Part shown: positions 4,366-35,810 of the stretch, piece by piece
How the letters are laid out: each line of letters begins with the position of its first letter
Numbering within the stretch: position 1 is the stretch's first letter
The notes under the pieces: generated by a model
Databases searched by the model: none
What the model saw: the letters and a program-made list of their open reading frames with translations, nothing else
What the model was told of the DNA's origin: nothing
Source: Dyella sp. ASV24
GTDB taxonomy: Bacteria; Pseudomonadota; Gammaproteobacteria; Xanthomonadales; Rhodanobacteraceae
DNA length: 38,568 nt
Assembly (NCBI RefSeq): GCF_016428905.1
Contig: NZ_JAELTQ010000032.1
Span: 1 to 38,568 of the forward strand
Reading direction: 5' to 3'
Translations under genes and position numbers: made by a program

Positions 4366-4552
4366 CGGCTGCTGTGGGTCAATTATGCCTGCGCGGACTG
4401 CCTGACCGCGCAGCTCGCGTAGCCGGCGCGAAAAGTTTTCGACCCTGAACGTTTTGCATCGCCGCCGGATTGCGCGTCGAGCGCATCACACCTCGCTGGC
4501 CCCATGCTCGCTAGACTTTCGGCCGCAACCTTTTGCGAGACCCGACGCGACC

Positions 4553-5205: not shown

Positions 5206-5394
5206 TCAGGCGTCGTCCTCGGAGCCCACACTGACCTGCAGGTCGCCGTCTTCGTCGATGCTTACGCTGACGTCGATGGGTCGGCAGCAGACCTGGCAAT
5301 CCTCGAAGTAACGCTGATTGCCAGCGGAGCCATCGACCAGAATCTCGATGGCTTCGCCGCAATACGGACAATGGATGAGGACAGCTTCGAGCAT
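5206..5394 (-). CDS. CPxCG-motif cysteine-rich protein (small zinc ribbon)
   Basis: A 62-residue protein. CPYCGE near residue 9 and CQVCC about 25 residues later give a four-cysteine zinc-ribbon-like arrangement typical of the CPXCG-motif family (Cys_rich_CPXCG), whose role is not established. The C-terminus is acidic ([18 protein letters not shown]). The start at 5394 is chosen because the sequence just upstream reads GAGGAGG on the minus strand. A longer in-frame start at 5463 would run into the lipoprotein gene. It lies 35 bp after that lipoprotein on the same strand, so the two are probably an operon. Confidence 0.85.
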
Positions 5395-5429
5395 GTCACC
5401 CTCCTCACCTGTCCAGGCCGGCATGTCGC

Positions 5430-5852
5430 TCAGCGCTTGGCGAGCGACAGCGACGAACCCCACTTGTTGACTTCGATGGTCGCGCTTTCACCCGCCGCCA
5501 GCGTGGTATCCACGTGCGCATCGCTGCTCACCTTGTGGCATGCGCCGGAGTTACGCAGCGACACGGTGTGCGCGCCACTGGGCAGGTAAAGCGTCGCCTG
5601 CTCGCCGGTTTCCAGCTGCGCGGCGAACTTGTCGTCGATCAGCACCTGACTGGAGCAGCCACCGCCGAAATAACCATTGGCACGCACGACCTGCAGCGTG
5701 GCGTTGCCGTCACCCGGCGCCTGATAGAGGAATTGGCGATTGGACACCACATCCTTGATGACCTTGTCGTGGTCGTTGGTCACGCCGCAACCGGTCAGCG
5801 CCACCATGGCCACCAGCACTGCCGCACCTGCCACGCTCTGCATGATCTTCAT
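5430..5852 (-). CDS. Putative lipoprotein of unknown function
   Basis: A 140-residue protein starting at the ATG at 5852, eight bases after an AGGTGGA ribosome site; a GTG two codons earlier is also in frame. A lipoprotein signal peptide is clear: a hydrophobic core, then LTGC as the lipobox at about residue 20. The mature part has a beta-rich look with [17 protein letters not shown] and a final [15 protein letters not shown], resembling periplasmic beta-sandwich lipoproteins (DUF2846/PEGA-like), but I cannot assign a family. Two further cysteines (GGGCSSQ and SGACHK) may form a disulfide. The gene leads into the CPxCG gene. Confidence 0.8.
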
Positions 5853-5929
5853 CACCACACTCCACCTGATTCGAAAGTTAGCTGTCCGAGCATCGCGAAG
5901 ATGCGATCAATCAGTTGTGAATCGTACGC

Positions 5930-6388
5930 TTACGACCGGGGTGCTTCCCATGCCGAAGGGCACAGGATGCGGAACCAGCCCTCGCGCGCCGTCCGGCGAG
6001 CCAGTTGCAGCAAGGCTTTGTCCTTGCTGAGCAGGTATTGCGCACCCGCCGCCAGCGCCAGTTCGAGGAATTTCTGGTCGTCCGGATCGGCGCAGCGCGG
6101 CAATTTCACCGCTGGGGGTGACACCAGGGCCGGTTCGGGCAACAAGGCGACCCAACGGTCAAATGCCGCTGCGGCGTCGCCGCGCGCGGCGTCCGTGAGC
6201 CCGAAGGCGGGATATTCCAGCACCACCAGCCACTCCGCACGGCACGGTTCGTCCACCACGGCGGCCACGGTGCCGTCCCGCAACGCGTCCATCAGATGGG
6301 CGCAATCGGGGTCTCGGAACACGAACAGGTCGAGGGCAACATTGGTATCGAGGACAAGCCGGGGAACGGAAACAGACATGGCGCGCAT
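5930..6388 (-). CDS. PIN-domain protein, putative toxin-antitoxin toxin family
   Basis: A 152-residue PIN-fold protein. The first acidic residue is in LVLDTNVALDLF (about residue 14). The Glu is in DEPCRAEWLVVLEYP (about 53) and the later pair is in CADPDDQKFLELALAAGA (about 100). These are the expected magnesium ligands of a PIN ribonuclease, and the pattern is that of the COG1569 group annotated as a TA toxin of the PIN family. A second start at 6379 is possible. No recognisable antitoxin is adjacent on the same strand: upstream is a divergent hypothetical gene, downstream a lipoprotein gene. Toxin activity is therefore unsupported by context. Confidence 0.85.
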   Translation of the reverse strand: MRAMSVSVPRLVLDTNVALDLFVFRDPDCAHLMDALRDGTVAAVVDEPCRAEWLVVLEYPAFGLTDAARGDAAAAFDRWVALLPEPALVSPPAVKLPRCADPDDQKFLELALAAGAQYLLSKDKALLQLARRTAREGWFRILCPSAWEAPRS

Positions 6389-11603: not shown

Positions 11604-11765
11604 TGTCACCCCGCGCTTAAAGGCATTGCTGCCATCTATCCCCGAAACGCTGCAGTCTTTGCTGCCGTGCGTGTATGCATAATAAGCATGTTTTGACGAG
11701 CCGCATGCACCTTTGGCGTCGCAGGAAGATGCGCGGCGCAGACATCATTCTCAACCGGGCTATTG

Positions 11766-13343
11766 ATGAATCCGCGACTGCAGGGGCTGGGGCCCAACGC
11801 CACCCAACAAGTGATGATCGCCGCCCAGGCGCTGGACGCCGGCCGCGTGGACGATGCGGAGAGGCAATTGGCTCGCGTGATCGCGGCCTACCCCGATCAC
11901 CCCGAGGTTCTGCGCATGCAGGCCGGCATCCACAGCATGCGCGGAAAGCATGAACTGGCTGTCGCTACGATGCGGCGCGCCATTGCGCTGCGCCCACAGG
12001 ACGCGATGTACCACAACACCCTGGGCTCTCTGCTGGGCAACGCAGGGGAGTACGAGGCCGCCATCACCGCGTTGCGCCGCACGTGCCAGCTTCAGCCTGA
12101 TCTCGCCATGGCGTGGTTCAACCTTGGTGTGATGCTGACCAAGAGTGTGCGCAACGAAGAGGCCGCCGAGGCCCTGCAGCGTGCGATCTCACTCGCGCCG
12201 GGTCACCTTTCCGCCCGGGCCCTGTTGGCGGATATCCTGCGCACTCGCGGACGCGTGGACGAAGCTGCCGCGGAGTACCGCCGGATCATCGCCGTGCAGC
12301 CCACCGCCGGCCTGGCCTGGTGGGGCTTGGCCGACTTGCGCACGCAACGCTTCAGCGACGATGACATCGCGCAGATGCGCGCGGCACAGGCCAGACCCGA
12401 GGCGAGCGAACAGGATCGCGTCACCATCGGTTTTGCCCTGGCTAAGGCACTGGATGAGCGTGGCCGTTACGCCGAATCACTCGATGCCCTGGCTGCCGCG
12501 AATGCCGTAGCACAGCGCAGCCATCCCTGGAGCGCCACAGCGTTCTCCAGCAGCGTGGCATCGATCACCGACGCATTCGACCCGCCGCGCCCTGCCTCGT
12601 CGGAACCCTTGGGGCGGGAAGTCATCTTCATCGCGAGTTTGCCGCGCTCAGGCTCCACCCTGGTGGAACAGATCCTGGCCACGCATTCGTCGGTGGAAGG
12701 CGCCGGTGAATTGCCGGACCTGCCCTATGTGCTGGGCGAGGAATCGCGCCGTCGTGGCAAGCCCTTCCCGCTTTGGGTCAGCGACATGCAACCGGAAGAC
12801 TGGCAGCGTCTTGGCCGCCACTACCTGGAACGCACCGCCCATTGGCGTCGTGAGCGCCCGGTATTTACCGACAAGCTACCCAACAACTGGATCTACATCG
12901 GCGCCATCCGCGCGATGCTTCCGGAAGCGCGCGTGGTGGTGTGTCGCCGCGACCCGCTGGAAACCTGCTTCTCCTGTTACCGCCAGCCGCTGGATGCCAA
13001 CAACGGTTACACGCGCACCTTCGACGATCTGGCGACCTTCTGGCGCGACTTTGATCGCAGCGTCACGCGCAGCGCAAGCCTGCATCCCGACGCGGTGCGC
13101 GAACACCGTTACGAAGCAATGATCGATGACCCGGAAACGCAGATTCGCGAGCTGCTCGCCTTCTGCCAGCTGCCCTTTGAGGAAGCCTGCCTGCGATTTC
13201 ACGAAAATCGTCGTGACGTCCGCTCGCCCAGTGCCACACAAGTGCGCCAGCCGTTGCGACGCGACACGGCGCGTAGCGCGCAGTACGGCGCCCTGCTCAA
13301 TCCGCTACGCAAGGCGCTCGGCCTGCCGACTCTCAGCGCATGA
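11766..13343 (+). CDS. TPR-repeat sulfotransferase (first of a coupled pair)
   Basis: A 525-residue protein. About five TPR units span residues 12-190 (for example AVATMRRAIALRPQDAMYH and AAEALQRAISLAPGHLSA). A Sulfotransfer_3 domain follows. Its PAPS loop IASLPRSGSTLVEQILATHS lies at about 290-309. TDKLPNNWIYIGAIR is the mid-domain signature, and the 3'-phosphate segment is ARVVVCRRDPLETCFSCYRQ at about 386. The ATG at 11766 is preferred to a TTG one codon earlier. The stop overlaps the start of the next gene by four bases (ATGA), so the two enzymes are made together. The acceptor is unknown; TPRs are commonly protein-binding. Confidence 0.9.
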   Translation: MNPRLQGLGPNATQQVMIAAQALDAGRVDDAERQLARVIAAYPDHPEVLRMQAGIHSMRGKHELAVATMRRAIALRPQDAMYHNTLGSLLGNAGEYEAAITALRRTCQLQPDLAMAWFNLGVMLTKSVRNEEAAEALQRAISLAPGHLSARALLADILRTRGRVDEAAAEYRRIIAVQPTAGLAWWGLADLRTQRFSDDDIAQMRAAQARPEASEQDRVTIGFALAKALDERGRYAESLDALAAANAVAQRSHPWSATAFSSSVASITDAFDPPRPASSEPLGREVIFIASLPRSGSTLVEQILATHSSVEGAGELPDLPYVLGEESRRRGKPFPLWVSDMQPEDWQRLGRHYLERTAHWRRERPVFTDKLPNNWIYIGAIRAMLPEARVVVCRRDPLETCFSCYRQPLDANNGYTRTFDDLATFWRDFDRSVTRSASLHPDAVREHRYEAMIDDPETQIRELLAFCQLPFEEACLRFHENRRDVRSPSATQVRQPLRRDTARSAQYGALLNPLRKALGLPTLSA

Positions 13344-14884
13344 ACGCGTCCGTGCCTCCAGCAGGCGCGCCGGAAGCGGAGTGGCTAGCGCGAGGACGCG
13401 CCCTGGCCTTGCAGGGCCAAGTGCAAACCGCGCTTGCGCTCTATGAACAAGCGAGCGAACACTTCCCCGCGTCGTCCAATGTTCGCATCGGGCTTGCTGG
13501 GTTGTGCTGGCAGGCGGGCCAGCATGAACGCGCGGAATCACTCCTGCGTGAATGGCTGACTGACCATGGCAACGACGCCGCGTCGACCTTTCTGCTTGTT
13601 GATCTTCTACGCCAGCAGGGGCGTCTCGACGATGCCGCCGAGGCGATGCATGCCCTGTTCGCCCATGGGCAACAGAGCGCGGATACCGTCATCCGCGCTG
13701 TCGAGGCGCTGGACGACTACGGCCGCCAACAAGACGCAGCGGCGATTTGCGAGGCAGCCATTGCCAACGGTGCAGAGGATCCACGCCTGCACGCCTACGC
13801 GGGCATGCTTGCGATCCAGCTAGGACAATTTGAGCGCACCCGCAGGCATTACGACATCGCCATGGCGATGAGCCCAGATGCGGTCGAGTGGAACATCCCT
13901 CTAGGGCTCGCCGGCCTGCAGCGTTACCGCGACACGCAGCACCCCGATTTCGCTTTCTTCCGTGAACTGCTGCAACGCTCCGCCCTCAGCGATGCGGCGC
14001 GCAGCGGCACCTTGTTTGCTCTCGGCAAGGCCTACGACGACGTGGAAGAGGTCGAGCAAGCGGTACAGGTGCTACGGCAAGCCAATGCGCTAATGCAACA
14101 GAACCACCCGTGGTCGCGCAAGCTGTGGAAACGCAGCATCGAGGCACGCCTGGGCGCACCATCGTATGGGCCGCCGCTAGAGCCTGCCGACGACTGGACG
14201 CCGGTCTTCATCGTCGGCGTGCCGCGTTCCGGCACCACCTTGCTCGCCGAGCGATTGGCTCGACACCCACAGGTGCGTGCGCGTGGCGAGCTGGGTTGGC
14301 TGCAGGTCGCAGCCCAACGCGTGACGCAGGCGGCGACCATCCAGCGCACGGTACTGGAAGATGCCGCCGCGCTTTATGCGACGCACGCGCGGCAGGGCGA
14401 GCAGGACGCACACTGGATCATCGACAAGCAGCCACTCAACTTGCTGCACGTCGATCTCATCCTCACACTGTGGCCGCACGCGCGCATCATCCATTGCGAA
14501 CGCAACGCACGCGATACCGCGCTATCGCTATGGATGCAGTCATTCCACGATCGCGCACACGACTATGCCTACGATTTCGATGACATCGCGGCGGTGATCC
14601 ACGGCTGCCGGCGATTGATGGCGCTTTGGACGAAACGCTACAGCGGCTCCATCCGCACGGTGCGCTACGAAACGTTCGTGGCTGCACCGGACGAAGAACT
14701 CGCCGCACTCGAAGCATGGCTACGGCTGCCTCCAGCCCCGCCAGCAGCGACGGCACCGACACCCTCGCCTATCAGCACGGCCAGCGTATGGCAGGCACGC
14801 CAACCGGTATACACACGTTCGGCAGGCCGCTGGCAACGCTACGCGGCCTACCTGCCCGAGTTGCTGGCGTTGCCGGAGTACTGA
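13340..14884 (+). CDS. TPR-repeat sulfotransferase (second of a coupled pair)
   Basis: A 514-residue protein with the same build as its upstream neighbour: TPR-like helices over about residues 1-250 (ALALQGQVQTALALYEQAS, LDDAAEAMHALFAHGQQSAD) and a Sulfotransfer_3 domain. The PAPS loop FIVGVPRSGTTLLAERLARH is at about 290-309. IIDKQPLNLLHVDLIL is the mid-domain motif, and ARIIHCERNARDTALSLWMQ is the 3'-phosphate segment at about 380. The two proteins have clearly diverged, so they probably act on different acceptors or form a heteromer. The start lies in an ATGA overlap. The gene ends 20 bp from the convergent third TPR-sulfotransferase. Confidence 0.9.
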   Translation: MNASVPPAGAPEAEWLARGRALALQGQVQTALALYEQASEHFPASSNVRIGLAGLCWQAGQHERAESLLREWLTDHGNDAASTFLLVDLLRQQGRLDDAAEAMHALFAHGQQSADTVIRAVEALDDYGRQQDAAAICEAAIANGAEDPRLHAYAGMLAIQLGQFERTRRHYDIAMAMSPDAVEWNIPLGLAGLQRYRDTQHPDFAFFRELLQRSALSDAARSGTLFALGKAYDDVEEVEQAVQVLRQANALMQQNHPWSRKLWKRSIEARLGAPSYGPPLEPADDWTPVFIVGVPRSGTTLLAERLARHPQVRARGELGWLQVAAQRVTQAATIQRTVLEDAAALYATHARQGEQDAHWIIDKQPLNLLHVDLILTLWPHARIIHCERNARDTALSLWMQSFHDRAHDYAYDFDDIAAVIHGCRRLMALWTKRYSGSIRTVRYETFVAAPDEELAALEAWLRLPPAPPAATAPTPSPISTASVWQARQPVYTRSAGRWQRYAAYLPELLALPEY

Positions 14885-14904
14885 CGCCGGCAACGTCAAC
14901 GCGG

Positions 14905-16731
14905 TCACTCGTCGACCGAGTAACCCCAATGGCGCAGCATGGGTTCGAGCGTAGGCAGCACCGGCTCCAGGTACTGACGATACTTCTGCCAACGCCCCAT
15001 GCCCTTGCGGTTCACCGGCTCGATCACCTGCGAATAGCTAGGCGTACCGATGAAGCTCTTGTTGCGCGCGTGTTGGTCGAAGGCCAGCATCGGCGACGCG
15101 TCCTCGAGCCCGATGAAGGAGGCGAGACGCTCGACCTGTCGCGGGAAATCCGTCACCAGATCTTCATAGCGAGAGACCATCACGTTGGGCCGGAGAATAT
15201 CCACCTGCTCCAGCCATGTCGTCATGGTTTCCACGTAAGCGTGGGCGAGGCGATCCAGCGTGCTGCATGCCGCCGCGAGGACGCTGGCGCGGAAGTTCTG
15301 CATGTAGCAACTGAGCACGACATCGCAGGGGTGGCGCACCGCCAGGATGAGTTTGGCCTCCGGGAACAGACGGTGGATCATCGGCAGCCACTGCATGTTC
15401 AACGGGTTCTTGTCGACCAGCTGAGCATCCCAACGACGGTTGATGCGCTCCGCCACCATGATGTTATATCGCTTGCGCAACTCATCACAGTCGTACTGTC
15501 GAAGCACACTCAGGTCGTCAAGGATGCGCTGATCGTGCTGTCGAAGTATCAGCGACAAGCGACTGAAGAACGGGTTTTCGTCCATCGACTGCAAGGCCGT
15601 ATGGGCGTCCAGCATCTGCTCCAGCAGCGTGGTTCCCGAACGCGGAAAGCCCACGACGAACAGCGGCGAGTCGTGCGCATCGGGGGCGATATGTTGTGGC
15701 CATCGCGCATACTGTTCGGTCGTCACGCTCGGCGCATCACTGGGCAGTGCCTTCGCCCCTGGCGCGTAATGCTCGGGTGACTCGTATTGCCTGAGGCGGA
15801 TGTTCACGCGGTGCGCTTCGTTGAGCGCACGCATCGCCGCATCGACATCACCGAGCTTGTCGCACGATGCAGCCAGCTGAAAATAGTGCTGGTCATCCTC
15901 GGGGCCATTCGGGCCGCACTGCTCCAATAATTGCCGCGCGCCGGCATGGTTACCACGACGCTGGGCGAGTGTAGCCAACAGGTATTCAGCCTCAAGGCGG
16001 AGTTCGCCCCCTGCCCGGCTGGCAATATCAAGCACCGGACGTACCATCGCTTCGGCTTCATCCAGCCGATTGAGCCGTTCGTACAGGCTCGCCAGCAGCA
16101 GACGCACTTCGGGCGCCATTGACTGACGCGTCAACAGGTCTTCGAGCAGCGCCGCCGCGTCCACCAGGTCATTACGCAGCGTCAGCACCTGCGCAAGATC
16201 CATCTGGAGCGCGTCGTCTTGCAACGGAATCCAGCTACGCCAGGGCCTGAGCAGGTCGGCCGCACCATCGAAATCCTGGCATCCGCAGCAGGCGCGCGCT
16301 GCGCGTATGCGAATCCATGGCGACTCTCGATCTAGTTCAAATGCGTCGAGCAGTATCTCGCGCGCGGCCGGATATTGGTGGCGCTCCACCAGCATCAAGC
16401 CGAGTTGAGCCTTGGGAACTGCGTTGTTGGGATCCAGCCCCACCGCTTTCTGATACGCCGCGAAAGCCTCGTCGCGGCGTCCTACTTCCATCAACTGGGT
16501 GGCGAAGTTGTTCCAGTGCAGGCTGGACAACGGGTAGTGCTGGACCAGATCCCCGTAGACGGCCAATGCCTCACCGGGGCGCCCCTGATATTGCAGGCTC
16601 AGCGCCAGAAGCGTCAGGACGTTCTCTTCTCGCGGATTCAACTGCAGGGCATCGCGGCCAAGCTTTTCTGCCAGCGCGAACTGACCTGCCTGCAGCGCAC
16701 CCATGATGGAAGGAATGGTTTTGGAGTTCAT
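14905..16731 (-). CDS. TPR-repeat sulfotransferase downstream of the TonB-dependent receptor
   Basis: A 608-residue protein. TPR units cover about residues 15-330 (FALAEKLGRDALQLNPREEN, EAFAAYQKAVGLDPNNAVPK, with later degenerate repeats). The Sulfotransfer_3 domain has its PAPS loop VVGFPRSGTTLLEQMLDAHT near 358-377 and the 3'-phosphate segment AKLILAVRHPCDVVLSCYMQ near 462-481. LVDKNPLNMQWLPMIHRLFP is the mid-domain motif. It is the longest of the three and has more TPRs. It follows the receptor on the same strand with a strong terminator between them, and no Shine-Dalgarno is seen before the ATG at 16731. GTG (16740) and TTG (16737) are alternative starts. Confidence 0.9.
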   Translation of the reverse strand: MNSKTIPSIMGALQAGQFALAEKLGRDALQLNPREENVLTLLALSLQYQGRPGEALAVYGDLVQHYPLSSLHWNNFATQLMEVGRRDEAFAAYQKAVGLDPNNAVPKAQLGLMLVERHQYPAAREILLDAFELDRESPWIRIRAARACCGCQDFDGAADLLRPWRSWIPLQDDALQMDLAQVLTLRNDLVDAAALLEDLLTRQSMAPEVRLLLASLYERLNRLDEAEAMVRPVLDIASRAGGELRLEAEYLLATLAQRRGNHAGARQLLEQCGPNGPEDDQHYFQLAASCDKLGDVDAAMRALNEAHRVNIRLRQYESPEHYAPGAKALPSDAPSVTTEQYARWPQHIAPDAHDSPLFVVGFPRSGTTLLEQMLDAHTALQSMDENPFFSRLSLILRQHDQRILDDLSVLRQYDCDELRKRYNIMVAERINRRWDAQLVDKNPLNMQWLPMIHRLFPEAKLILAVRHPCDVVLSCYMQNFRASVLAAACSTLDRLAHAYVETMTTWLEQVDILRPNVMVSRYEDLVTDFPRQVERLASFIGLEDASPMLAFDQHARNKSFIGTPSYSQVIEPVNRKGMGRWQKYRQYLEPVLPTLEPMLRHWGYSVDE

Positions 16732-16740
16732 GGCCAACAC

Positions 16741-22335: not shown

Positions 22336-22971
22336 ATGATCCGCCTGTGCTTTCTCGCCTTGCTCCTGCTGCTGAGCCTCCCGGCTGCTGCAGGCACGGC
22401 TTACCAATGCATCGATGCCAGCGGCAAGGTGTCGTTCCAGGACAAACCGTGCCAGGGCCAGCAACGCCAACAGGTACTTCAACTGGACGATACCCCCGCC
22501 TACACGCCGGCCCAGCCCGAATCCGCTCCCTCACCCCAGGCCGTCACTGCCCCGCCTCCGCCATTACCGCCGCCCCCTATGGAATCGTCGTTGCCCGCCC
22601 TCTATGCGTGCATCCGTGCAACTGATGGCAAGACATACACCAGCGAGAACGGCGATCCCCAGCCCTATCAGGTGCCCTACGGGATTCTCGGCGACGCGCA
22701 GTTGCCTCTCTCGAAGGCGTACGGTGGACCGGGGGCTGCCGGTGCATCTGCGCCGGAGCTCAACCGCGGGCGCGTTACACCCGGGCTCATCGCCAACTAC
22801 TACGTGTGGGTACAGGACCAGTGCCGCCCACTGACGCGCGCCGAAACCTGCCGTGCTCTTCGCGATGCGTACGACGATATCGAGAGCAAGCTCAGGCGCG
22901 CGTTCAAGAGTGACCAGCCTCCGCTGGAACAACGCGAGCAAGAGCTGCACGGACAACTTCGCAGCTGTTGA
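22336..22971 (+). CDS. DUF4124 domain-containing secreted protein
   Basis: A 211-residue protein with a clear Sec signal peptide (residues 1-19, ending LPAAAG). A DUF4124 domain follows at about 20-60: TAYQCIDASGKVSFQDKPC, with the two cysteines typical of the family. Next comes a proline-rich linker (PPPPLPPPPMESS) and a second region with four or five further cysteines (YACIRATDGKTY, DQCRPLTRAETCRALRDAYD) that ends in a basic/acidic helix and LRSC. The function of DUF4124 proteins is not known; they are common in Xanthomonadales. The start has a GGGAGGA ribosome site. It may be co-transcribed with the DegV gene. Confidence 0.85.
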   Translation: MIRLCFLALLLLLSLPAAAGTAYQCIDASGKVSFQDKPCQGQQRQQVLQLDDTPAYTPAQPESAPSPQAVTAPPPPLPPPPMESSLPALYACIRATDGKTYTSENGDPQPYQVPYGILGDAQLPLSKAYGGPGAAGASAPELNRGRVTPGLIANYYVWVQDQCRPLTRAETCRALRDAYDDIESKLRRAFKSDQPPLEQREQELHGQLRSC

Positions 22972-23023
22972 ATGACGACTGAGTATTTTTTGCGCAATGT
23001 CATGCAAGTCTATGCTGCGCAAG

Positions 23024-23664
23024 GCCAATGACGGCTTGTCCACAGGCTTGCTACCAGGGTTTCCCCAAACACTGTGGAAAAAATGGCTCCGCGAGCTGAC
23101 GCAAATCTGGGCAGGATGATGAAAGCGTCGCTACAACATGGACTTGCATCGCCTATCCACAGGCTTACCCATGCCCCATCCACATTTGCTGTGGAAAAAC
23201 GCTGCACCAAGCCTGATGCAAAAGTACGCATGATGATGAAAAGCTCACGCTGGCAAGCACTTGCGTCGGCTATCCACAGGCTTGCCCAAAGGCCATCCAC
23301 ATTCGCTGTGGAAATCCATGCCTCGACGTTGCTGCAAAAGTACGCACGATGATGAAAATCCCCGGCTGGCGCGCACTTGCGTCAGCTATCCACAGGCTTG
23401 CCCATAGGCCATCCACACAGGCTGTGGAAATCCGAGCGTCAGCGCTGCTGCAAAAGTACGCACGATGATAAAAATCTCACGCTGACGCGCACTTGCGTCG
23501 TCTATCCACAGGCTTGCCAAGAGGCCATCCACATTCGTTGTGGAAAACCATCGGCCGCTGTCGATGTTTTGCGCATGACGATGAAACTTCTACGCTGGCA
23601 CGCACTTGCGTGGCCTATCCACAGGCTTGCCATGGCCCCATCCACATCTGCTGTGGAAAACGCG
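23024..23664. repeat. Tandem array of six ~116-bp repeats with DnaA-box-like words
   Basis: Six units start (at TATCCACAGG or its variant) at 23037 (degenerate, TGTCCACAGG), 23154, 23271, 23387, 23503 and 23616, giving steps of 117, 117, 116, 116 and 113 bp. In copies 1-5 the word CTATCCACAGG is invariant; CTATCCACA is one base off the DnaA box TTATCCACA. Exactly 25 bp later each copy has TCCACA-N5-TGTGGA, a 6-bp hairpin whose arms are identical in all five while the 5-nt loop varies. A less conserved part carries GCAAAAGTACGCACGATGATGAAAA-type sequence and GCACTTGCGTC. Period changes of 1-3 bp and stops argue against coding. It fills most of the 751-bp gap between the DUF4124 and SDR genes. 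Confidence 0.9.
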
Positions 23665-23722
23665 CGATCAGCGCCAGATAGCCACGCCTTTCAGCCGTGG
23701 CAAAGCCCGTGCGAGCGGCAAG

Positions 23723-24505
23723 TCAGAACCCATAATTGAGAAAGCCACCATCCACCGCCAGCACCTGGCCGGTGACATAGCTCGCCGCAGGCAAACACAG
23801 GAAAGCGATGGCCGCAGCGACTTCCTCGGGCTCGCCAATACGGCGCAACGGCGTGCGGTCGAGTACCTCATCGAGGTACTCATCGTCAGCAAGCGCCGGC
23901 TCGGAACGCTGGGTGCGGATGTACCAGGGCGCCACCGCATTGACGCGAATACCATCTGCCGCCCACTCCACCGCCAGATTGCGAGTGAGCTGATGGAGCG
24001 CGGCCTTGGTCATGCCGTAAGGCGATCCCGTGCGCACATGCGTCACACCCGAGACGGAACCTACATTCACGATGGCTGCGTTGGCGTGCTGCACAAGCTG
24101 CGGGTGCGCCAGCCGACACATTTCGAAGGCCGAGAACAGGTTCTGCTCGAAGATCGCCCGGTATTCGTCCTCGTGGTAGGCCAGCGTCGGTGCCGGGCGA
24201 TTACCACCCGCGTTATTCACCAGCAGCGAGAGCGGTGCGCCAAGATCAGCCACCCAGTCGAACACAGCGAGACGGTCTTCCTGTTCTCCCAGATCCGCGC
24301 CGAACGCCAAGACCTCGATGCCCGGGAAATCGTCCAGCAACTCGACGCGCACCTGTTCCAGATAATCTGCGTCGCGCGCCACCAACAGCAGATTGGCGCC
24401 GAGGCCGGCCAGCTCGCGGGCAGTGGCATAACCGATGCCCTTGCTGGCGCCGGTGATCAGGGCCGTGTGTCCTTGCAGTTGCCAAGCGTCGATGCGTGCG
24501 TTCAT
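23723..24505 (-). CDS. SDR family oxidoreductase (tropinone-reductase-like)
   Basis: A 260-residue classical short-chain dehydrogenase. The cofactor site TGASKGIGYATA is at about residues 18-29, NNAGG at about 96, the catalytic Ser region NVGSVSGVTHV at about 146, and YGMTK with catalytic Tyr and Lys at about 163-167. A C-terminal VTGQVLAVDGGFLNYGF closes the fold. NADP preference is suggested by the Arg in VARDADYL after strand 2. The substrate is unknown. It points towards the repeat array, which ends about 60 bp beyond its stop, and is divergent from the small lipoprotein gene (85 bp apart). Confidence 0.93.
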   Translation of the reverse strand: MNARIDAWQLQGHTALITGASKGIGYATARELAGLGANLLLVARDADYLEQVRVELLDDFPGIEVLAFGADLGEQEDRLAVFDWVADLGAPLSLLVNNAGGNRPAPTLAYHEDEYRAIFEQNLFSAFEMCRLAHPQLVQHANAAIVNVGSVSGVTHVRTGSPYGMTKAALHQLTRNLAVEWAADGIRVNAVAPWYIRTQRSEPALADDEYLDEVLDRTPLRRIGEPEEVAAAIAFLCLPAASYVTGQVLAVDGGFLNYGF

Positions 24506-25713: not shown

Positions 25714-25743
25714 TTGACGCGCCCTGCGGCGCGGGCGTACTTT
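25714..25743 (+). promoter_or_regulatory. Possible promoter of the metE riboswitch transcript
   Basis: TTGACG at 25714-25719 is a good -35 element. TACTTT at 25738-25743, 18 bp later, is a partial -10 match. It lies just upstream of the first riboswitch stem, where a promoter must be. The GC-rich spacer could alternatively form a small hairpin ending the ABC gene transcript. Confidence 0.4.
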
Positions 25744-25752
25744 TGCGCCGCT

Positions 25753-25956
25753 GGTGGTTTTCATCCTTTCATCGCGATGAAAGGATGAAATGAAAAGGGA
25801 AGCCGGTGCGGCCCATACGGGCCAATTCCGGCGCTGCCCCGCAGCGGTGTGTGGAAACGACCTTCGCCATAAGCACTGGCCCTGACGGCCGGGAAGCGGC
25901 GGACAGTAGGCGAAGCATTGACGTGCTTCATGTCCACGAGCCCGAAGACCTGCCCC
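25753..25956 (+). ncRNA. Cobalamin (B12) riboswitch upstream of metE
   Basis: The conserved core elements of the cobalamin riboswitch are seen in order: GGTT before stem P2 (25756-25759), GGGAA (25797-25801) and GGTG (25805-25808), GCGCTGCCCCGCAGCGG near 25831-25846, AAGCACTGGCC near 25871, GGGAAGC near 25891, and the B12 box GAGCCCGAAGACCTGCC at 25938-25954. P2 is unusual: TTTCATCCTTTCATCG followed directly by its perfect complement (25759-25790). Adenosyl- or methylcobalamin binding would shut off the B12-independent methionine synthase downstream. About 225 bp of leader to 26178 follows; no textbook terminator with a T run is visible there, so control may act at translation. Confidence 0.93.
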
Positions 25957-26178
25957 GGCCAGAAGGCTCGTCCTTCTGTCAGACCTGGAGCTTCCGAGGG
26001 GAAGCGGCCGGATGTCGCGTCGTGGCCCCCGCTCGCGGCGTGCGCTTCCGTGTCCGCCCGCGGCTGTTCCGGTTCGCCCGAGGGGGCGAAGGTCGCTGGC
26101 GTGAAGGTCGATGCGATTTGCATCGCTTTGGCGCAGTTCCTTCGTTCCTCATTCATCACGAATCGAGGACACGCAAAC

Positions 26179-33324: not shown

Positions 33325-33385
33325 GCCAAGCAAAAAATTCAACACACTGAATTTGTTGATTTTTTTTGGGTGGCTAAAACTTGAA
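33325..33385. repeat. AT-rich inverted repeat in the gene-free region before priA
   Basis: AAATTCA (33335-33341) and TGAATTT (33348-33354) form a perfect 7-bp inverted repeat. They lie inside a larger imperfect dyad in which an A6 run pairs with a T8 run and outer AGCCA pairs with TGGCT. This is much the most AT-rich stretch of the window. No protein-coding signal is evident in the whole region 33168-33641. Confidence 0.55.
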
Positions 33386-33448
33386 CAGCGCGTACGGAAG
33401 GCCGTTTTCATGCGCCCCAGAGGCCTCCCTCAACGGCCCATCCACAGA

Positions 33449-33473
33449 GTTATCCACAGAGGCTGTGGATAAC
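33449..33473. promoter_or_regulatory. Inverted pair of consensus DnaA boxes
   Basis: TTATCCACAG (33450-33459) and CTGTGGATAA (33463-33472) are head-to-head copies separated by AGG; with the flanking G and C the arms are 11 bp and perfect. Each contains the full DnaA box TTATCCACA. A further TCCACAG lies at 33441-33447. The pair is 170 bp upstream of priA and 60 bp after the AT-rich dyad. Confidence 0.7.

Positions 33474-33641: not shown

Positions 33642-35810
<2,169 letters not shown>

Follow-up and report, generated by a model that had tools for sequence, protein, structure and literature searches.

A tandem array of DnaA-box cassettes with a DARS-related geometry in Dyella sp. ASV24

In the genome of Dyella sp. 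ASV24 we identified an array of six tandem non-coding cassettes, each built of DnaA-box-like sites whose geometry is related to that of the Escherichia coli DARS loci. The array is probably a lineage-specific, DARS-like DnaA-binding array that adjusts the amount of free DnaA or its nucleotide state, a reading with which simple titration of DnaA overlaps. The window analysed is a stretch of 38,568 nucleotides, which is one contig of the 5.6-Mb draft genome. The six units have a length of 113-117 bp and span positions 23036-23660, with the first box (box A) starting at 23036, 23153, 23270, 23386, 23502 and 23615, which corresponds to periods of 117, 117, 116, 116 and 113 bp. Tandem Repeats Finder reports the interval 23142-23661 with a period of 116 and 79% matches, and the six-unit array of about 116 bp described in an earlier note on this DNA is borne out by these values. 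The array takes up the whole gap between two convergent genes, both directed into it, which code for a DUF4124 protein on the left (22336..22971, plus strand) and an SDR oxidoreductase on the right (23723..24505, minus strand). Elsewhere in the window, three TPR-sulfotransferase genes lie side by side at 11763-16740, and a cobalamin riboswitch (25738-25971, 103 bits) is found ahead of a cobalamin-independent methionine synthase gene, which is an ordinary arrangement.

Each cassette is composed of DnaA-box-like 9-mers: box A on the plus strand, box B on the same strand at 23 bp, and box C on the minus strand, 14 bp past B, perhaps with a degenerate box D between A and B. TATCCACAGG is found exactly at 23154, 23271, 23387, 23503 and 23616, and TCCACA-N5-TGTGGA follows 25 bp further on in each case, so that both words are indeed exact in five copies at a 25-bp spacing, as had been claimed, with unit 1 being the divergent one. 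Unit 1 (23036..23081, plus strand) has TTGTCCACA, GTTTCCCCA and TGTGGAAAA at offsets equal to those of the other units, with box A (TTGTCCACA) at 23036-23044, the B position (GTTTCCCCA) at 23059-23067 and box C (reverse, TTTTCCACA) at 23073-23081. In unit 2 (23153..23198), A (CTATCCACA) starts at 23153, the degenerate candidate D at 23165 and B (CCATCCACA) at 23176, while C (reverse, TTTTCCACA) occupies 23190-23198. The other units, also on the plus strand, follow the same plan, with A, candidate D and B starting at 23270, 23282 and 23293 in unit 3 (23270..23315; C, reverse ATTTCCACA, 23307-23315), at 23386, 23398 and 23409 in unit 4 (23386..23431; C, reverse ATTTCCACA, 23423-23431), at 23502, 23514 and 23525 in unit 5 (23502..23547; C, reverse TTTTCCACA, 23539-23547), and at 23615, 23627 and 23638 in unit 6 (23615..23660; C, reverse TTTTCCACA, 23652-23660). 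In the window, the pattern TCCACA-N{4,20}-TCCACA-N5-TGTGGA matches at six places, of which five belong to the array and the sixth is at 33441 (see below), whereas it has no match in 200 sequences made from the window by single-base shuffling.

The conservation of the boxes was determined from unit contexts taken from loci L020-L117, L123-L133 and L167, which contain TCCACA (with at most one mismatch) and an exact TGTGG. There are 442 distinct contexts, reverse readings included, of which 414 have a 28-base gap, and in 205 of those the B hexamer differs from TCCACA at one base at most. Invariance within the seed words is partly imposed, because the contexts were selected by those words. Before the box A word of these 205 units, position −3 is C in 142 and T in 63, position −2 is T in 202, and position −1 is A in 124, G in 50 and T in 31; after TGTGGA, position 40 is A in 174 (C in 21, T in 6 and G in 4), position 41 is A in all 205 and position 42 is A in 199. 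Flanks and words together give the DnaA box TTNTCCACA on either side, its third base being variable.

The 176 full units, which are those with an exact TCCACA at B, were scored against TTWTNCACA. Box C is exact in 154/176. Box A is exact in 22 units and has at most one mismatch in 154. The variation in both is mainly at the third box base and, in A, also at the first base, where C replaces T. Box B is weaker than A and C, with 27/176 units within one mismatch. Together with the fixed register, the counts for A and C lend good support to the proposal that the units offer DnaA-like sites in both orientations, which are under selection. For the candidate box D, starting at column 9, the mean score is 4.28 of 8, against 2.03 expected; when the columns were permuted 20,000 times at this one chosen start, a fraction of 0.0014 attained that score. 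Two of the 176 units are within one mismatch of TTWTNCACA at this position, and in the 22 units with TCCCCA at B a start at column 8 outscores column 9 (4.50 vs 4.14). It is doubtful that D is a real box; if it is, the spacings would be 12 bp for A-D, 11 bp for D-B and 14 bp for B-C. The corresponding gaps of 3 bp (A-D) and 2 bp (D-B) would match the preferred gap of 2-3 bp given for double DnaA boxes in a passage of PMC11317965, from which the array differs in the degeneracy of D.

The bare word TATCCACAGG is found 20 times in the genome, 5 of them within the array, and the reversed word used as control 6 times, which is an enrichment of only about threefold. The three-site core, defined as TCCACAG-N{14,18}-TCCACA-N{4,6}-TGTGG, has ten matches on two contigs, five in the array and five at a trp locus on contig C629, with none for the control. 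The genome-wide search for the unit, which had been set as a test of the idea, hence returned ten copies at two places, rather than hundreds of scattered ones. At the trp locus, where gene positions were obtained by tblastn, cassettes are present in two further convergent gaps, one between a GT4 glycosyltransferase gene and accD, and the other between a lysR-type gene and trpF. A small group of TATCCACAGG words at 4494, 5867 and 5886 of contig C628 of the same genome is other than the cassette type, and the loose core has no match in L042, the locus taken for this group.

The three-site core is present in all 20 same-genus genomes, in 1 to 14 copies per genome, with no control matches. BLAST recovered the window locus in 19 of these 20 genomes, the own genome included; in G011, whose first-look candidates were scored in part, BLAST matches were found only elsewhere. 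The number of units at the window locus ranges from 1 to 7 across the 19 loci, as counted with a loose pattern. The unit with TCCCCA at B, which is the type of unit 1, is present in 18 of these 19 loci (L021-L039) and absent from L036. This type multiplies too, since five copies are found in tandem in L048 of G017 (5311-6032), spaced about 173-184 bp. Cassettes are also present at additional addresses in G001, G007, G008 and G013. The extra cassettes of G008 (L128 and L129) and G007 (L130) lie inside longer homologous stretches, and L128 and L130 share 86-88% identity over two stretches of about 2.2-2.4 kb. The pair TCCACA-N{0,30}-TGTGGA, counted per strand in three genomes, occurs 34, 27 and 37 times, against 8, 7 and 7 for the control, the count for G006 being among the matches listed. 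All 12 gap-5 pairs of G002, and 16 of the 17 of G019, are at the window locus, the trp locus or the priA site described below; the remaining one in G019 is a lone box pair at C1:3216359-3216375, outside the known loci.

For comparison, we read E. coli DARS1 and DARS2 from NC_000913, DARS1 in the bioD-uvrB gap, where we take it to lie, and DARS2 in the rppH-mutH gap. The latter location fits the deletion-primer passage of PMC4585315. Both loci have a forward box, a reverse box at 14 bp and a second reverse box 12 bp beyond, with mismatches in several boxes. Passages of PMC5742627 describe three equally spaced boxes at both loci, of which box I points the other way from II and III, and there and in passages of PMC8682772 the head-to-head boxes I and II are the prominent DARS feature, on which head-to-head DnaA promotes ADP release. 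In the array, boxes B and C are head to head in the same 14-bp start-to-start register as boxes I and II of DARS1 and DARS2, the third box runs in the direction of the second, and C is reversed relative to A and B. A three-box core is present in five of the six units, with a weak B, while unit 1 has GTTTCCCCA at the B position. Like DARS, the array is non-coding, and its fractional distances from the origin are roughly similar. In contrast, its outer box is 23 bp from the middle one instead of 12 bp, with a possible degenerate box 11 bp from B; it consists of up to seven tandem units, whereas DARS has one core; and there is no IHF consensus (at most one mismatch) in 22960-23720, the same scan being also blank at E. 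coli DARS1. Since the array lacks the 12-bp spacing of DARS boxes II and III, it is not classed here as a DARS. Clusters of DnaA boxes outside oriC are also described for Bacillus subtilis, from which DARS1, DARS2 and datA are absent according to passages of PMC13220808, and the array resembles those clusters in being distant from oriC.

In addition, a core with the DARS geometry itself is present in the same window (33438..33472, minus strand), upstream of priA, which codes for the replication restart helicase (33642..35810, plus strand). It is formed by box III (CCATCCACA, 33438, plus strand), box II (TTATCCACA, 33450, plus strand) and box I (TTATCCACA, 33464-33472, minus strand), with box I opposite to II and III, and its minus-strand offsets of 0/14/26 are equal to those of E. 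coli DARS1 and DARS2. The strict pattern of this geometry was found in 130/147 genomes of the family and in 25/26 genera, with no control match. It occurs once per genome, except in G108 and G156, which have two copies, and 17 genomes are without a match. In 28 of 30 loci the core adjoins priA, as determined by tblastn, and L158 and L165 gave no PriA match. An IHF-consensus-like site, with one mismatch to WATCARNNNNTTR, is located at 33340..33352 on the minus strand, at an offset of −101 from the first TCCACA of the core. Judged from sequence only, 21 of 31 loci (30 plus the window) have such a site (at most one mismatch) on the same strand at an offset of −101 to −103, where about 0.02 would be expected from the window-wide rate of 14 such sites, the genomes being related and so non-independent. 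At E. coli DARS2 the IHF scan gave three sites, one of them at −90 on the same strand, and at DARS1 it gave none. Of the 12 same-genus genomes with strict-core data, 11 have the priA core and a window-locus cassette on a single contig, separated by about 7 to 10 kb; in the remaining one, G011, no cassette is found near the priA core.

The spacing between the first two TCCACA words takes few values. When 17 gap lengths were allowed, 27/50 genomes of the neighbouring family matched (control 1), and all 69 matches are at gaps of 6 (16), 17 (44) and 18 (9). Across the order, 125/250 genomes match the gap-variable core (control 0), and among the 150 matches listed, which were counted by hand, gap 6 accounts for 41 and gap 17 for 107, with one each at gaps 16 and 19. 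No formal probabilities are given for these spacings, because shared ancestry makes them too small. Gap 17 corresponds to a register of 23, which is one helical turn, or about one box, beyond the register of 12. In the neighbouring family, the ten genomes with gap 17 have no gap-6 match and the 16 with gap 6 have no gap 17; the gap-18 form is present in six genomes, five of which carry gap 6, and the gap-17 copies are often single and dispersed.

The array-type core, with a G after the first TCCACA, is present in 81/147 genomes of the family and 19/26 genera (control 0), forms lacking that G being missed by this pattern. In a class-wide sample of 274 genomes, the gap-17 core was found in three, the only members of this order sampled. 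The gap-6 core was present in 119/274 genomes and 100/222 genera, mostly with one or two copies per matching genome (control 0 for both cores). From the comparison of these two frequencies, the gap-6 core looks old and the gap-17 cassette looks like a product of this order.

The position relative to dnaA was calculated for the four single-contig same-genus genomes (G002, G006, G008 and G019), in all of which the distance from dnaA, as a fraction of the genome, is 0.140-0.188 for the window locus and 0.344-0.409 for the trp arrays. For the priA core, the distance is 0.042-0.240, with a median of 0.103, in 17 further single-contig genomes of the family, most of their lengths being rounded (17 of 26 genomes, the nine multi-contig ones left out). 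With the E. coli origin at what we take to be its position, DARS2 is at 0.206 and DARS1 at 0.329 of the genome from the origin. The distance of the arrays from dnaA may simply follow gene order. All five dnaA loci (L118-L122) carry a pair of oppositely directed TTATCCACA boxes at a distance of 34 bp; in L118 (6124 and 6158) the pair is directly downstream of the dnaA frame, and it is possibly part of oriC.

DnaA binding is the simplest account of the words, the variation at the third base, the fixed register and the addresses, and we consider it very probable that DnaA binds the cassettes. Aligned over 462 columns, the DnaA of this genome and the E. coli protein share 56% identity, and GRDHTTVLHACR in the DNA-binding domain is the same in both, so a similar recognition of boxes is expected. 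On the proposed mechanism, DnaA molecules on boxes C and B would be head to head, in the 14-bp register of DARS boxes I and II, while further protomers would occupy A and the degenerate D, which lie 12 bp apart, D being 11 bp from B. A cassette would thereby have roughly one tandem box in addition to the three of the DARS core. DnaA held in the cassettes would change the amount of free DnaA and the nucleotide that it carries, and by this the timing of initiation. Most likely, the array would add reactivating capacity, from ADP-DnaA through apo-DnaA to ATP-DnaA, to the single priA core 10 kb away. We are evenly divided on the weaker part of this proposal, in which box D is a fourth site and the cassettes release ADP rather than merely titrate DnaA. 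Between recharging, titration or both, the DARS-like role is favoured, because the head-to-head register is so strictly kept.

A DnaA-titrating locus, where the boxes would sequester DnaA with no change of nucleotide, overlaps with the first part of this explanation, and is a possibility that we hold to be somewhat unlikely by itself. It would be served by 17 cassette positions of the array that are within two mismatches of TTATCCACA, and titration of DnaA is argued for E. coli in a passage of PMC12371093. The range of 1 to 7 units among the 19 same-genus loci suits titration as well as it does the DARS-like reading, and, with the near-identical duplicated units of G019, agrees with a dosage role. 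However, titration needs sites and not an exact head-to-head register, which is kept in 69/69 matches of the neighbouring family and in 148/150 among the matches listed for the order, and the weak box B would contribute little to it.

The comparison with datA, which had also been drawn in the earlier note, fits less well, and a datA-like site that promotes hydrolysis of ATP-DnaA is improbable. The array shares with datA the character of a chromosomal DnaA-box cluster outside oriC and, if D is real, boxes A, D and B would be same-direction boxes with gaps of 2-3 bp, like tandem low-affinity boxes. Passages of PMC5742627 state that the essential boxes of datA share one direction and that an IHF site is required, whereas in the array box C is reversed in six of six units and no IHF consensus (at most one mismatch) is found in 22960-23720. 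Identity with datA was rejected on these two points, and the geometry instead matches that of DARS boxes I and II.

A transcribed multi-hairpin RNA, another suggestion of that note, or a block of terminators serving the convergent gene pair, would agree with the location in a convergent gap, with the six stem pairs that form in most units, and with four terminator-like sites, all on the minus strand, where 1.5 are expected (sd 1.2). This suggestion is not supported, and we consider it very unlikely. A stem pair is broken in 26 of the 205 units, in 22 of them at pair 26-36, and no two-sided (compensatory) change is found among the 205, whereas A41 and A42 are conserved outside the stem, even though the bases that would face them can pair in just 49 and 9 units, respectively. 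The TCCCCA units keep the mean DnaA-box score at the B position (6.00 vs 5.96) despite the broken stem. These observations point to a conserved feature that is other than the hairpin. A sigma-70-like promoter was not found in 22900-23800, and at Rfam gathering scores the cobalamin riboswitch is the only match in the window.

Finally, an ordinary, functionless REP-like intergenic repeat, with which the tandem duplication of units and the location of the three array positions examined in convergent gaps, common for REP elements, would agree, is argued against by copy numbers of 1 to 14 in each of the 20 same-genus genomes, by the absence of control matches there and in the 147 family genomes, and by the coincidence of the DnaA boxes with the conserved columns, which leave it hardly credible.

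The DARS loci were worked out in E. coli, and their conservation is covered for seven species close to it in a passage of PMC8682772. We found no description of DARS in Xanthomonas, Stenotrophomonas or relatives in a literature search that was mostly at the level of titles and abstracts, with thin coverage of subscription papers and preprints. In the relevant passage of a Xanthomonas paper (PMC3826837), 'DARS' is only a cited author of similar name, and the passages of PMC8453159 that concern DnaA boxes mention them at oriC only.

Returning to the DARS-like reading, we put forward, tentatively, that in this order a second DARS form may have evolved, with four boxes per cassette, placed in tandem at set addresses, and with a copy number that would act as an adjustable dial for DnaA recharging. 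If this is true, the four-box form would have arisen by insertion of 11 bp, roughly the span of one DnaA protomer, after the second box and before the third, the set addresses would be near one third and three quarters of the replication arm, and the older single core next to priA would work alongside the four-box arrays. The strict core, found in 130/147 genomes of the family and 119/274 of the class, together with a second, tandem register, would mean that DnaA recharging is a more widespread control and one more open to evolution, and the natural variants in spacing and copy number allow tests of how DARS works.
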